34,100 nucleotides of DNA, from contig QQSI01000034.1 of NCBI GenBank assembly GCA_003602645.1, positions 1 to 34,100 on the forward strand, written 5' to 3'. Source of the stretch: Candidatus Poseidoniales archaeon. Lineage in GTDB: Archaea > Thermoplasmatota > Poseidoniia > Poseidoniales > Poseidoniaceae. The first letter of the stretch is position 1; the number at the start of each line of letters is the position of its first letter. The notes beneath the pieces were generated by a model. The model ran no database searches. It was not told where the DNA came from and was given only the letters and a program-made list of their open reading frames with translations. This document shows positions 106 through 7,026 of this stretch, one piece after another. The translations under genes and the position numbers were made by a program.

Positions 106-1845
<1,740 letters not shown>

Positions 1846-1873
1846 TTTTATTTCCTCCATTTTGGTTGGAACA

Positions 1874-2173
1874 TTACTTCCAAAGGTCGACTCCTATTGC
1901 CTTGCGAATTGTGTCTCGCAGAGCGGTGTCTTCTTCCGTTCCGATGCCAAGCACGGTCGGAGAGACGGATGCCGAGAGTTGGTCACGAAGACGCTCTGGC
2001 AGTGCGGCAAGGATTGCGGAGTCAACCACGACAATCCCGACGCTTTTGTTGCTGAGTAGTGATTTGAAGGTGGCGACCATTGCGTCTTCACCTTCAGGGT
2101 TGTGCAGATGATCGACACCTGCAAGTTGGAAACCGAGGGTGAATTCCGGCGTACCCACAACTGCGATATCCAT
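1874..2173 (-). CDS. atpF: A-type ATP synthase subunit F
   Basis: Small 99-residue subunit of the central rotor stalk. The N-terminus [20 protein letters not shown] is the typical F-subunit opening (a Rossmann-like fold), followed by a VGIVVVDS strand and a C-terminal helical tail. It sits between subunits C and A as in most euryarchaeal operons. A clear GAGGTGAG ribosome binding site lies 7-8 bases upstream of the ATG. The distance to the atpC stop is only 10 bases, so translation is probably coupled. Confidence 0.95.
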
Positions 2174-2183
2174 TCATCTCACC

Positions 2184-3227
2184 TCAATTTAGTATGTGTG
2201 CTTCGAGCACATCCGTAGGCAAGCCCGCAAGGCGGCCTCGCACAATAAGTCGCAAGTCATCCACTTCTTGCACCTTCATGGCGATGTAGTGGATGACTGG
2301 AAGAGCAGAGACCGGGTGCAAGAAACTCATTCGAGCCATCATCTTGTGTTCCCGCTCTTTTAGCCAGGTGACCACAGCGTCAAGGCTGCGGGTTTCTGCC
2401 GAGGCTGCTAATGCTTCATCAAAGGAAGCACCATCAAAGCGTGCCGCGTTACGAAGAAGATCGAGTAAGGCGTCCTTTCCACCGGTAGCAATGGCGGAAA
2501 AAGCGCGCTTAGGTACGACCCGTCCTCCGGGTATAAGCAGGTCAACGATTTGTTCATTTGAAAGTCCAACAGCTCCTGCTTCGAGGACGTTGAGGATGTT
2601 CCGATGATCAATTTCACTTGCGACCAAGTCCTTCAAGAAACGGACATCAGGTCCTTTTCCTGTCAAGGCTTTGAGTGCGTTAGCGAAGTAATGGCGATCT
2701 AGTGCATCTTCGTAATCGGAGAGACGTGCGTCCTCTGGCACGGCTGCGAGAGCTGAACCGAAGGATTTTCGCCTCATCTGAGTCGATGCTGAACGTAGGT
2801 CATCAGCGCTTTCGATAATTTTAATCCAAGGCGTATTGATATCGTTTAATTCTGGAAGAATGGAATGAGTGATTTTCTCCATTTCCACATCGTTAGCCAC
2901 AGACCGCAACACAACTTTTGCGTTGTGGTATTGGTAGCGTGAGGTGTAGATTTCAACCATGGCACGGATTTTTCCGTTGCACAGGCCGACCATCTTGTCC
3001 AGTTCGTGTTCGAGGTTGTGAGTCAGGGCTGCTTCGACCAAATCGCCACCGGTCAAGCGACCGGCGTACATGTCCATTTCAGCACGATAACCAATGTCGC
3101 CGATGGCGACGGTCAACTGATCTGGAGATTGGCTAATGAGTTGGCGCAGACGGGCACGGTCCGCAAGTTTCTGCCGACGGGACTTTGCCCGGGCAGCAAC
3201 GTAGGGTGTGTTTCCTGTCATTACCAT
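2184..3227 (-). CDS. atpC: A-type ATP synthase subunit C
   Basis: 347-residue subunit of the V-ATPase d/AC39 family, the funnel-shaped socket that joins the central stalk to the membrane ring. It is almost entirely helical, with the family's repeated three-domain pattern. It is identified by its length, its helical composition and its position between subunits E and F. Two in-frame ATGs (codons 1 and 3) are possible. The GAGG that overlaps the atpE stop is eight bases before the first, so that one was chosen. The sequence is divergent, so the call leans partly on context. Confidence 0.93.
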   Translation of the reverse strand: MVMTGNTPYVAARAKSRRQKLADRARLRQLISQSPDQLTVAIGDIGYRAEMDMYAGRLTGGDLVEAALTHNLEHELDKMVGLCNGKIRAMVEIYTSRYQYHNAKVVLRSVANDVEMEKITHSILPELNDINTPWIKIIESADDLRSASTQMRRKSFGSALAAVPEDARLSDYEDALDRHYFANALKALTGKGPDVRFLKDLVASEIDHRNILNVLEAGAVGLSNEQIVDLLIPGGRVVPKRAFSAIATGGKDALLDLLRNAARFDGASFDEALAASAETRSLDAVVTWLKEREHKMMARMSFLHPVSALPVIHYIAMKVQEVDDLRLIVRGRLAGLPTDVLEAHILN

Positions 3228-3237
3228 TTAGAATCCC

Positions 3238-3798
3238 TCATTCAAACAAAATTGCTGTGGTTGCGCTCAATTCATCTTTCCAAGATTTTTCGAGCAAGGT
3301 GTCAAAGCGCATGTCGTAAGACACTGAGCCATCAGTGGCTTCGAGAACAAAGCCTCCCAGGCCATCAACTGCATCGCCCATCGATCGCTTTCCAGCGAGT
3401 TCAGAGAGCGCCTTTCGATCCATTTCAACAGGGCGGACGCTGTAATCGCTGCCGATTTCGTCAGCCTTCGCCATCAACGATTTGAGCAAACTTGCTCGAC
3501 CCTTCATTTTCGGGCTGCTAAGTTGGGCACGTGTCATTCCAAGGGTCTCATCAAGCACCTTGCGGCGTGCGACGAGAATTTCCTTTTGGTTGGCCTGGCG
3601 TGCGCTGGCAACGACTTCGCGGGCAAGCTGAGCTGCTTCGCGTTCGGTGCGGCTGGCCGCTTCCGAGCGGATTGTTGCAGCTTTTTCGGTTGCTTCTGCC
3701 ACAACTGCATCGGCCTCTTTCTTAGCCTCTGCAATCATAGCATCGGCTTCCGCCTTTGCTGATTTTGAGATGTCTTTTGCGAGTGTTTCAAGCGTCAT
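3238..3798 (-). CDS. atpE: A-type ATP synthase subunit E
   Basis: 186-residue peripheral-stalk subunit. The first half is a long Ala/Glu/Lys-rich coiled coil that pairs with subunit H (the gene at 6619-6930) to form the stator. The second half is the globular domain that docks on the A/B head, including the run VDGLGGFVLEATDGSVSYD that is typical of subunit E. The start is supported by GGAGG seven bases upstream. It lies between K and C as expected. Confidence 0.95.
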   Translation of the reverse strand: MTLETLAKDISKSAKAEADAMIAEAKKEADAVVAEATEKAATIRSEAASRTEREAAQLAREVVASARQANQKEILVARRKVLDETLGMTRAQLSSPKMKGRASLLKSLMAKADEIGSDYSVRPVEMDRKALSELAGKRSMGDAVDGLGGFVLEATDGSVSYDMRFDTLLEKSWKDELSATTAILFE

Positions 3799-3861: not shown

Positions 3862-4167
3862 TCATAGGAAGAGTGGTAGAGCACCGAGAATGACGATGGA
3901 TTCCGGCAAAGCAGTGAAAATCAATGCTGGTCCGAACTTGCTTCCGTCTTCTGCGAGCATACCGACAGCTGCGCTGCCAATGGCTGCTTGGGATAGACCT
4001 GCGCCGATAGCGGCCAGACCGAGTGCGATTCCAGCGCCAATGGCTGTGTATCCGTCACCGTCTGATGCCCCGGTTGGGTCTGCTGCTGCTGCTCCTTGAG
4101 CAACCATGGTGATGGCTGCCAAAAGGATCAATGTTCTTAGGCTCGTTTTTAGGGTGTTTGCGTTCAT
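3862..4167 (-). CDS. atpK: A-type ATP synthase proteolipid subunit K (c-ring)
   Basis: 101-residue proteolipid with one helical hairpin, so it is the single-hairpin 8-kDa type. Residues 1-29 form a hydrophobic leader ending AAAA that looks like a cleavable signal peptide. Helix 1 is Gly/Ala rich (GAGIALGLAAIGAGLSQ) and helix 2 carries the ion-binding carboxylate in the motif LPES (Glu89). A glutamine (Gln60) lies at a helix 1 position often conserved in archaeal K subunits. Whether the ring couples H+ or Na+ cannot be settled from this. GGAGG lies close upstream of the ATG. Confidence 0.96.
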   Translation of the reverse strand: MNANTLKTSLRTLILLAAITMVAQGAAAADPTGASDGDGYTAIGAGIALGLAAIGAGLSQAAIGSAAVGMLAEDGSKFGPALIFTALPESIVILGALPLFL

Positions 4168-4200: not shown

Positions 4201-6609
4201 CTATGATTGACCCTCAACGTGGAGGGAACGGCCACCGAGCGGTGCGAAAGCACGGCCGGATCCGTCGTAGAATTTGCCCATCCATTCCACAAAGTGGAGA
4301 CGGGCTGCGTGAATGGTTGGTGAAAGAATGCCCAGAGCCAAAGCGAAGACTTGGACAAAGAGGAAGATAACGAGGCAGAGCGCTGCAGTCAGGTATCCAA
4401 ATGCACCTCCAGTTTCAAGTCCGGCTAGGATGTTCTCCCAACCGAGGATAATGGAAACTTCTGCAATCTTGACACCTGCTACACCGACCGCCATGATGCG
4501 GAGGTAGGACAACGTGTTTGCCAGAAGGCCGAATGTTTCGATTGGACCCATAATGATGCCACCAGCCCAGCCAAACCCTTCATAGATGGCAAGGCCGACG
4601 ATGAGGCAGCAAATACCGCCAAGGAGGAGAAGGTTCCACAGGGGTTGAACTTCGAACAGTTCATTGTACCCCATAACGAAATTTCGGCAGACCATGAAGC
4701 CTCCAACGAGGATCATCAACCAAGAACCCTTCTCGAAGAAAGCTGCGCTGAATCCGTGAGCCTTGTTGACATTGAGGAATCCGATGATGAGACCGACTAA
4801 AATGTGGAAGACACCGAGGTAGACGGCGAGAGAGACGTATTGCTCCAGTCCGTGGCCTGCGCTTGCTCGGTGGAACGGCATCATCACGAACGGGTGGTCA
4901 GGGTCGCCAAGTCCAAGCAGAACAGCGAGTCCTTCAGGGAGGACGAACACATCATATGTCCAATCATAGATGCTGGTGAGGAAGGCAATGTCTGGGCCCC
5001 AACGGTACCCATCTTTGAGTGCCCCTGTTGCGTCATACATGCTGCCGTCCCACACAAAGCCAAAGCCTTCTGCGAAGATGATGCCCCAAATGATGCACCA
5101 AACACCCATCCAGCGGAGGACAGTCATGCCTTTTTGAGCGAGAGGATCAACGGCGAAGGGTTTGGAGCCGAGCCACAAAGAAAGAGCGACGAGCACTGCA
5201 CCATAGCCAAAGTCACCCAGGATCATTCCATAGATGAAGGGGAACGTCATCATAATCAGCATTGATGGCTCAAAGGTACCGTACTTGGGGCGACCGACAA
5301 GATCGACCAGAAGTTCGAACGGTTGAGTGGTTTTTCCATTTTGGAACTCGATTGGAGGGGCTGCTTCTTCGTGGTGCTCTTCCACTGAAGGCATAGCACG
5401 AATCATCGTGAGGGAGATATCAAGTTCGGGAAGGTTGATTTTCCCGTCGCCATCCAAATCCATTGCCTTGACAAGAGGACCGATGTCCCAAGGGGGCAAA
5501 TCGCCAATGCTTGTGGATTTGAGGGCCTGTTGGAACTCATAACTGTCAATCTTACCAGAATCATCCAAGTCAATCGATTTGAAGAATTCAAACACGGATT
5601 GCTTGGTTTTGATAAGGTAATCAGAGAGCATCACTAATTCCTTTGCGACCTCAGGCGAATCGTGAGCAGCGTCGTCGTGGCCGTGACCGTGATGTGGGTC
5701 AACATAGGCTTCGATGGAAACGTGAGAAGCGATTGCGCCGAGTTTATCTTTCACCATATCGCCTTTGGAGGTTGGAACCCACCCGTCCAAAGCAAACGCT
5801 TGGTCGCTGACTGCTACGAGGGTTGGAGAGGTGTAGATTGCATCTTCACGGGTCAGATGTTCCTCGAGCGCTACGAGTGAGCGACCGTTTCGATCGACCC
5901 AAGCGTCCAGCGCTTCCTGAGTGGACGCAATGGTGTTCTCGAGTGCGCCGATTTGCGAGAGAATGCTCGAGGCCTTTGACGCAGGTGAGCCTTCACCTGC
6001 TGGAATTTGAACCGCTTTAGCACCGAGTTCAGCGAGGCAGATTTGGACCTCTGCTGCGTGTTGAGTCTGACATGCCACCGCGACAATGCCTGGTGCGGAG
6101 TGGAGAAGAATTTCAGTTCCAAGCGCTGAGAAGACCGACTTTGCTTTGCTGGCTCTTGGGGTTTCTCCAACATAGACTTCGAGACCGTCGAATCCACCCA
6201 TTAATTCGAGAGGAATATCCAACGGAGCAAGACGTTCGAGGACCTGGTGTTGTTCCTTCAGGGAGGAAATCGAAGCTTCACTTTCCCGGATGGTATCGAG
6301 GTAGGCGAGTGCGTCATCAATTTTGGCTTCGAACCCATCCACCAATTCCTTGACTTTGCCGAGGGACACTGGTCCATCGATGTTCATTGCCTGGACGGAG
6401 GAGGAAACACCGCGAACCTTGGTGAGCAAGGCACTGGTTTTGTTCGCACCTTCTGTTGAAAGCGCCCTGCCAACACCAATTCCATCTTGGAAGTGGCCGT
6501 ATTCTTCGATGTGAACGCACGAGAGCGTAGCACACATTCGCAGAACTTCTTCCATCTTATCGACGGGAGCCGCCACGGTAAGGCGGGACATATCTGCGGT
6601 TGCGAACAT
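4201..6609 (-). CDS. atpI: A-type ATP synthase subunit I (a subunit) with inserted EF-hand pair
   Basis: 802-residue stator subunit that forms the ion half-channels against the K ring. The N-terminal cytoplasmic arm is about residues 1-300. The membrane domain begins near residue 417, with the family motifs FPFIYGMILGDFGYG, the essential arginine in NTLSYLRIMAVG, and the C-terminal ARLHFVEWMGKFYDGSGR. Between arm and membrane domain lies a segment of about 110 residues that is not part of the family. It has a His/Asp-rich stretch (305-317) and two canonical EF-hand loops (347-358 and 384-395). The protein is larger than usual archaeal AtpI (about 650-700 residues) by about the size of this insert. 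No strong ribosome binding site is visible, so Met7 is an alternative start. Confidence 0.96.
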   Translation of the reverse strand: MFATADMSRLTVAAPVDKMEEVLRMCATLSCVHIEEYGHFQDGIGVGRALSTEGANKTSALLTKVRGVSSSVQAMNIDGPVSLGKVKELVDGFEAKIDDALAYLDTIRESEASISSLKEQHQVLERLAPLDIPLELMGGFDGLEVYVGETPRASKAKSVFSALGTEILLHSAPGIVAVACQTQHAAEVQICLAELGAKAVQIPAGEGSPASKASSILSQIGALENTIASTQEALDAWVDRNGRSLVALEEHLTREDAIYTSPTLVAVSDQAFALDGWVPTSKGDMVKDKLGAIASHVSIEAYVDPHHGHGHDDAAHDSPEVAKELVMLSDYLIKTKQSVFEFFKSIDLDDSGKIDSYEFQQALKSTSIGDLPPWDIGPLVKAMDLDGDGKINLPELDISLTMIRAMPSVEEHHEEAAPPIEFQNGKTTQPFELLVDLVGRPKYGTFEPSMLIMMTFPFIYGMILGDFGYGAVLVALSLWLGSKPFAVDPLAQKGMTVLRWMGVWCIIWGIIFAEGFGFVWDGSMYDATGALKDGYRWGPDIAFLTSIYDWTYDVFVLPEGLAVLLGLGDPDHPFVMMPFHRASAGHGLEQYVSLAVYLGVFHILVGLIIGFLNVNKAHGFSAAFFEKGSWLMILVGGFMVCRNFVMGYNELFEVQPLWNLLLLGGICCLIVGLAIYEGFGWAGGIIMGPIETFGLLANTLSYLRIMAVGVAGVKIAEVSIILGWENILAGLETGGAFGYLTAALCLVIFLFVQVFALALGILSPTIHAARLHFVEWMGKFYDGSGRAFAPLGGRSLHVEGQS
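5356..5697 (-). other. EF-hand and His-rich insert within AtpI
   Basis: Codons 305-418 of atpI. Loop 1 is DLDDSGKIDSYE: Asp at loop positions 1 and 3, Ser at 5, Gly at 6, Ile at 8, Asp at 9 and Glu at 12. Loop 2 is DLDGDGKINLPE: Asp at 1, 3 and 5, Gly at 6, Ile at 8, Asn at 9 and Glu at 12. The loops start 37 residues apart, the normal spacing of a paired EF-hand, and each has helix-like flanks. The His-rich stretch that precedes them (DPHHGHGHDDAAHD) may bind transition metals. Calcium binding is inferred from the motif. Confidence 0.92.
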
Positions 6610-6618
6610 AGTAACAAC

Positions 6619-6930
6619 TCACTGAGAATTCACTTTATCGAGCAGGTGGGCAACTGCCTTATCCTTTCGATCTGCTGCAGAAGATTCGATGGCGTCAACC
6701 ACTTTTTGGCCCTCTTTGGCAACACCCTCTGCTTCTTTGTTTGCTTTCGCTCGTGCAGCGTCGAGGGTCGCTTGTGTTTCTGAGACTGAACCATCGGTTG
6801 CGTCGGCGACGATTTGAACGGATTGGCGGCGGGCTTCCGCTGCAATTTTCCCGACTTCAGCTTGGGCATCTGCAAGTTGCTTTTCGGCATCCTGTTCTGC
6901 TTGCTTGATTTTGCGAAGGACGTCAGCCAT
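6619..6930 (-). CDS. atpH: A-type ATP synthase subunit H (peripheral stalk)
   Basis: 103-residue, highly charged, almost fully coiled-coil protein starting MADVLRKIKQAEQDAEKQL. This opening is typical of archaeal subunit H (also called G), which pairs with subunit E in the peripheral stalk. It is the first gene of the ATP synthase operon, nine bases before atpI. An upstream in-frame ATG would add seven hydrophobic residues that do not fit the family, so the inner ATG was chosen. A GGTGAT lies 11-16 bases before it. I see no convincing TATA element upstream. Confidence 0.9.
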   Translation of the reverse strand: MADVLRKIKQAEQDAEKQLADAQAEVGKIAAEARRQSVQIVADATDGSVSETQATLDAARAKANKEAEGVAKEGQKVVDAIESSAADRKDKAVAHLLDKVNSQ

Positions 6931-7026
6931 ACCCAAGATAATCACCAGCAATTCGGCTGAATGGTAGGGGGTTTATGAGGCTAATGGGGGGGAATCTATG
7001 GCCAAACAAGCGACCTGCGTCGATGA

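Follow-up and report, generated by a model that had tools for sequence, protein, structure and literature searches.

The atpI locus

The window, that is, the whole stretch of 34,100 nucleotides analysed here, carries on its minus strand a cluster of ATP synthase genes in the order H, I, K, E, C, F, A, where the neighbours of atpI were named by reading their sequences. The atpI gene itself (4201..6609) encodes subunit I (a) of an A/V-type ATP synthase, 802 residues long, as assigned from Pfam, NCBIfam and a fold match. The open reading frame directly upstream (6619..6951) was read from its sequence and position as subunit H of the peripheral stalk, and the one directly downstream (3862..4167) as subunit K of the c-ring, a two-helix proteolipid whose sequence can be read directly. 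Apart from K, the downstream genes together span 106..3798, namely those of subunits E (3238-3798), C (2184-3227), F (1874-2173) and A (106-1860), all on the same strand and assigned from their sequences and the known operon order of archaea. Only one copy of atpI was found in the window's genome, which is a multi-contig assembly.

AtpI matches the Pfam family V_ATPase_I (PF01496, 6.5e-32) and the NCBIfam model of V-type ATP synthase subunit I (2e-103). The full-length AlphaFold model is of moderate confidence (pLDDT 71.6, pTM 0.51; pLDDT 66-75 in the insert region described below), and its top Foldseek matches are the Thermus thermophilus chains 6qum_N and 6r0z_N, the former with an E-value of 4.3e-22 and a TM-score of 0.69 by target. 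Leaving aside the EF-hand insert, AtpI is a usual subunit I in both sequence and fold.

The EF-hand pair in AtpI

The insert comprises 93 residues (319-411). Its core is a module consisting of an entering helix and two helix-loop-helix units (residues 324-404, 5398..5640 on the minus strand), as delimited by Pfam, AlphaFold and fold matches. Loop alignment gives the first EF loop, DLDDSGKIDSYE, as residues 347-358 (5536..5571, minus strand) and the second, DLDGDGKINLPE, as residues 384-395 (5425..5460, minus strand), with a spacing of 37 residues from start to start. The original prediction had proposed paired loops at 5425-5571 with this very spacing; the span is exact, and Pfam, shuffled sequences and the structural model support the pair.

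When the whole of AtpI is searched against Pfam, EF-hand_1 (1.1e-8) and the pair model EF-hand_7 (8.1e-8), together with EF-hand_6 and EF-hand_5, score above their curated cut-offs. A loop was taken as canonical if it has acidic or polar residues at positions 1, 3 and 5, glycine at 6, a hydrophobic residue at 8 and glutamate at 12. By this rule 0.0026 loops are expected per shuffled AtpI and two loops occurred in 0 of 20,000 shuffles, while both loops fit it in all 46 of the 46 AtpIs found to carry the insert. The PDB sequence matches are calmodulins, centrins and similar proteins. Matches to XopAW in NCBIfam were dismissed as mere EF-hand similarity, with 32 bits against a cut-off of 120.

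Folded alone with AlphaFold, using an alignment of 36 inserts, the insert adopts a paired EF-hand fold (pLDDT 88.3, pTM 0.78) with a strand pair between the two loops (strands 35-37 and 72-74), in line with the pairing that had been expected. EF-hand helices and short loop strands are also seen in the full-length model. The PDB matches listed by Foldseek for the isolated insert are EF-hand-containing proteins or assemblies, with weak E-values (best 0.02), as is usual for a small domain. Sequence and model together confirm that AtpI carries a calmodulin-type EF-hand pair, which is putatively calcium-binding.

Insertion site and linkers

In relatives that have no insert, the cytosolic arm leads into the first membrane helix through a short His/Asp-rich linker, for example VDDHHGHDDGHHEPTPP. 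Alignment with these proteins shows that in the window's AtpI the module splits this linker into an N-terminal part, HHGHGHDDAAHDS (residues 306-318, 5656..5694, minus strand), and a C-terminal part, HHEEAAPP (residues 412-419, 5353..5376, minus strand), both with low model confidence, for the latter at residues 406-414. With a profile built from the relatives, both flanks of the insert align to about residues 306-316 of T. thermophilus subunit I. The alignments thus place the insert after the cytosolic N-domain and ahead of the first membrane helix, which agrees with the arm-membrane junction named in the original prediction.

The arm of subunit I is cytosolic in the T. thermophilus enzyme, and the module should therefore lie in the cytosol. 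As a part of this arm the insert would meet cytosolic calcium, and the earlier suggestion of sea-water calcium as the source of the ligand does not fit such a location. The tethers on either side of the module (residues 305-320 and 406-414) have pLDDT values below 50 in the AlphaFold model. Since both are of low confidence, the model favours a domain on tethers over a part of a hinge, and the proposal of a rigid hinge that is bent by calcium to gate the enzyme is not supported. The EF-hand pair is predicted to be a domain tethered on two flexible His/Asp-rich linkers. In these archaea, both AtpI and NuoL have such linkers, whether the module is there or not (e.g. in L287); they could possibly bind metal, or simply be sites that tolerate insertions.

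Distribution and origin of the insert

We searched 171 genomes of the window's family, Poseidoniaceae (marine group IIa). The survey of the AtpI insert covers Thermoplasmatota, where genomes with a complete atpI were scored; the organism labels of the relatives are in part mis-binned (e.g. L088, Flavobacteriales). The insert is present in 46 distinct AtpI sequences and is, among the genomes scored, confined to the window's own genus (which includes MGIIa-L1, L115). Such loops are missing from the AtpIs of the remaining genera of Poseidoniaceae and from those of 11 sampled genera of the sister family. An apparent second insert in the 909-residue AtpI of L122 was ruled out, as the surplus stretch consists of consecutive Ns.

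In a tree of 109 AtpIs from which the insert columns had been removed, built by a quick method without bootstrap, the 45 carriers of the module form one clade with an SH-aLRT support of 96, and their sister group consists of seven AtpIs of the same genus that have no module. One gain and no loss explain all 45 carrier rows of this tree. Alignment and tree thus show that the insert was gained a single time, by the ancestor of one of the clades within the window's genus.

With a multi-contig genome, an assembly chimera or a mis-joined contig also has to be considered as the origin of the insert. The 46 distinct sequences with the insert come, however, from many assemblies made independently, among them the single-contig chromosome CM001443.1 (L090) and the AG-numbered assembly AG-333-I22 (L101), and a chimera is therefore rejected; the tree of the remaining protein moreover puts the carriers in one clade. 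An artefact of this kind therefore has next to no probability, and the refuting case named in the original prediction, an insert absent from all relatives, does not apply.

Selection on the insert

Among the 46 AtpIs, positions 1, 3, 5, 6 and 12 of loop 1 are invariant, as are positions 1, 5, 6 and 12 of loop 2, where position 3 is either D or N. Both of these residues are good calcium ligands. The ligand positions are kept even though the identity of the inserts falls to 47-55%, and there are also conserved residues outside the loops, namely an invariant Pro-Pro and several helix positions. Pairwise dN/dS values, calculated by the Nei-Gojobori method, are 0.049 for the insert, 0.028 for the loops, 0.070 for the N-domain and 0.064 for the membrane domain, and are rough ratios since synonymous sites are often near saturation. 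These sequence comparisons show that the predicted calcium ligands are under strong purifying selection.

These data bear on the scenario of a near-neutral insertion, in which a duplicated domain landed in a tolerant linker and persisted there without a function. The site is indeed a length-variable linker that tolerates insertions, and the insert is restricted to one clade. Such a domain would however hardly be expected to have a dN/dS of about 0.05 and invariant ligands despite large divergence, and to be retained without loss in 45 rows; a further argument against the scenario is that NuoL of another family has a second EF-hand pair at the site where NuoL of Poseidonia has its own (see below). 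Given the selection data, this scenario appears largely refuted, and we consider it very improbable.

Related modules on other proteins

Modules homologous to the AtpI insert occur elsewhere in these archaea, mostly with 53-69% identity over the full length and with a common flank, ELxMLxxYL. The matches to EF-hand_7 above the cut-off number about 8-10 per genome of these archaea, while among 14 control genomes there is only one with such matches. In the window's own genome, a further protein (L003:64-1956, minus strand) has zinc ribbons as well as two EF-hand pairs, and its middle part is very acidic.

A membrane protein that is about 660 residues long, is predicted to have 13 helices and carries a C-terminal EF-hand pair is present in all 11 genera of Poseidoniaceae, an example being L194:4288-6267 (minus strand). 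Its module is more diverged in the outer genera, and its C-terminus is cytosolic by the positive-inside rule. The protein matches no Pfam family outside the EF-hands and no PDB chain. Its identification as haem-copper oxidase subunit I was considered and rejected, as there is no Pfam COX1 match, an hhalign probability below 1% and no PDB match. Since the Pfam, hhalign and PDB profile searches came back empty, we leave the protein unnamed. In the insert-free clade of the window's genus (L197, L198, L200, L199), an extra C-terminal stretch follows its EF-hand pair; in L197 this stretch matches Pfam SAP (7.4e-8), and in L199 the protein has two EF-hand pairs.

A homologous EF-hand pair is also found in complex I, where the NuoL of Poseidonia carries it within another His/Asp-rich linker (L209:1985-4561, minus strand, and L281-L284). 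The NuoL of the window's own genome has no EF-hand module. From what is generally known of antiporter-like subunits, the NuoL loop that bears the module would face the cytosol. A diverged EF-hand pair is located at the same linker site in NuoL of the sister family (G186, G208; loci L285 and L342:2657-5614), and is possibly an independent insertion. In addition, two genera encode, between NuoJ1 and NuoK, a small protein with a C-terminal EF-hand pair (L341:2952-3533, minus strand; L342:1752-2348, plus strand). It can be read as NuoJ2, both from its place in the operon order H-I-J1-J2-K-L and from its own sequence. The modules on AtpI, NuoL and NuoJ2 imply that EF-hand pairs have repeatedly been grafted onto proton-pumping complexes.

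In the sampled genomes, which represent few lineages, the AtpI module occurs in one genus and the NuoL or NuoJ2 modules in others, and an AtpI module is never combined with one on a complex I subunit. A tree of the modules groups the copies from AtpI, NuoL and the small protein with some of those from the membrane protein (98/96). It is based on 104 columns and has many unresolved forks. The likeliest source of the module is the family-wide membrane protein of about 660 residues. Both the restriction of the AtpI module to one clade and its sharing with subunits of complex I go beyond the original prediction.

Possible function

We propose that the module is a tethered cytosolic regulator of the synthase that responds to calcium and was grafted once into the AtpI linker, a reading based on sequence and structural model whose chances we regard as about even. 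From its place in the linker between the stator arm and the membrane half of AtpI, the module would bind cytosolic calcium, and in the loaded state would open a hydrophobic face. It could then dock on a neighbour, which may be the stator arm, AtpC, the loops of the c-ring or another protein, and the docking would change the activity or the coupling of the synthase. The module would thus act as a swinging, docking domain rather than as a hinge.

Regulation of this kind is consistent with the retention of the ligands in 46 of 46 sequences, the low dN/dS, the absence of losses, the predicted paired fold, the repeated attachment to proton-motive subunits and the wealth of EF-hand_7 matches in these genomes. 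On the other hand, flexible tethers would suit a passive domain too, and the confidence of the full-length model is moderate. Since most genera of the family have no module in AtpI, it must be dispensable for the enzyme in general.

The main rival is a constitutively loaded scaffold, that is, a docking domain with structural, always-bound calcium that would link the ATP synthase, and in other lineages complex I, to one another or to a shared partner, and would not be a sensor. The presence of the same module on several membrane complexes, the flexible tethers, which suit docking, and the conservation outside the loops (the invariant Pro-Pro and the helix positions) are all compatible with such a role. 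The host protein varies by lineage, however, being AtpI in the window's genus and NuoL in Poseidonia, and this is a poor fit to one obligatory bridging role. We therefore take the scaffold to be possible but rather unlikely.

Another option considered was a local buffer of calcium or magnesium, or a metal store, which would operate near the membrane together with the His/Asp-rich linkers and would not regulate the pump directly. Although AtpI and NuoL have the linkers irrespective of the module, and these genomes encode many EF-hand proteins, two sites per AtpI amount to a tiny capacity, and the strong conservation of non-ligand positions would be superfluous for buffering. This option is improbable.

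Returning to the calcium-responsive regulator, the modules on NuoL and NuoJ2 in sister lineages suggest that one theme, a calcium input to proton-motive complexes, may underlie all these cases. The broader statement would be that a prokaryote has built-in calcium control of oxidative phosphorylation by way of EF-hand pairs grafted repeatedly onto cytosolic faces (ATP synthase subunit I, NuoL twice and NuoJ2), and we hold its chances to be a little short of even. Mitochondria are the best-known case of oxidative phosphorylation under calcium control. In the abundant archaea of the surface ocean considered here, the ATP synthase stator and complex I themselves contain fused EF-hand pairs, and the sequences suggest that these open-ocean microbes may link calcium to their energy metabolism. 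The boundary between carriers and non-carriers runs through one genus and offers a natural comparison with and without the module, and with 93 residues the insert is small enough to be expressed, which makes built-in calcium control of a rotary ATPase directly testable.

Comparison with known systems

Among the open-licence papers searched, we found none that describes EF-hands for archaeal NuoL or for a stator subunit of ATP synthase, and the view that EF-hands were unreported for rotary ATPase stators stands for the papers searched. Subunit I of T. thermophilus (VtpI; PDB 6qum chain N, 3rrk) has the same fold and domain order as AtpI, but it has no EF-hand and its linker is short (DEHHEAD, about residues 310-315). 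Pairs of the calmodulin/centrin type (PF13499) share with the AtpI module two canonical 12-residue loops and the paired helix-loop-helix fold; in AtpI, however, a single pair is fused inside a stator subunit of a rotary ATPase instead of belonging to a free protein.

The TLDc protein mEAK-7, which binds the mammalian V-ATPase, likewise brings an EF-hand-like domain to a rotary ATPase (PMC9263379). In that case the domain is part of a protein of its own, located on subunits B and E, has no acidic calcium ligands and shows no calcium response (PMC9263379), whereas the loops of the archaeal AtpI keep all their ligands. For the same archaeal order, Meheust et al. 2022 describe, in general terms, clade-specific families of Poseidoniales with calcium-binding domains, and the parts of that work consulted do not name subunits of ATP synthase or complex I (PMC9258230). 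Built-in EF-hands also occur in eukaryotic membrane enzymes that are regulated by calcium, such as the DUOX/NOX NADPH oxidases (PMC7794343, PMC9421330). There, too, cytosolic EF-hands are fused to a bioenergetic membrane protein, but the host is unrelated to AtpI, and calcium regulation is established for DUOX/NOX while it is proposed for AtpI. Subunit I and EF-hands are thus each known, and what is new is the fusion of both.
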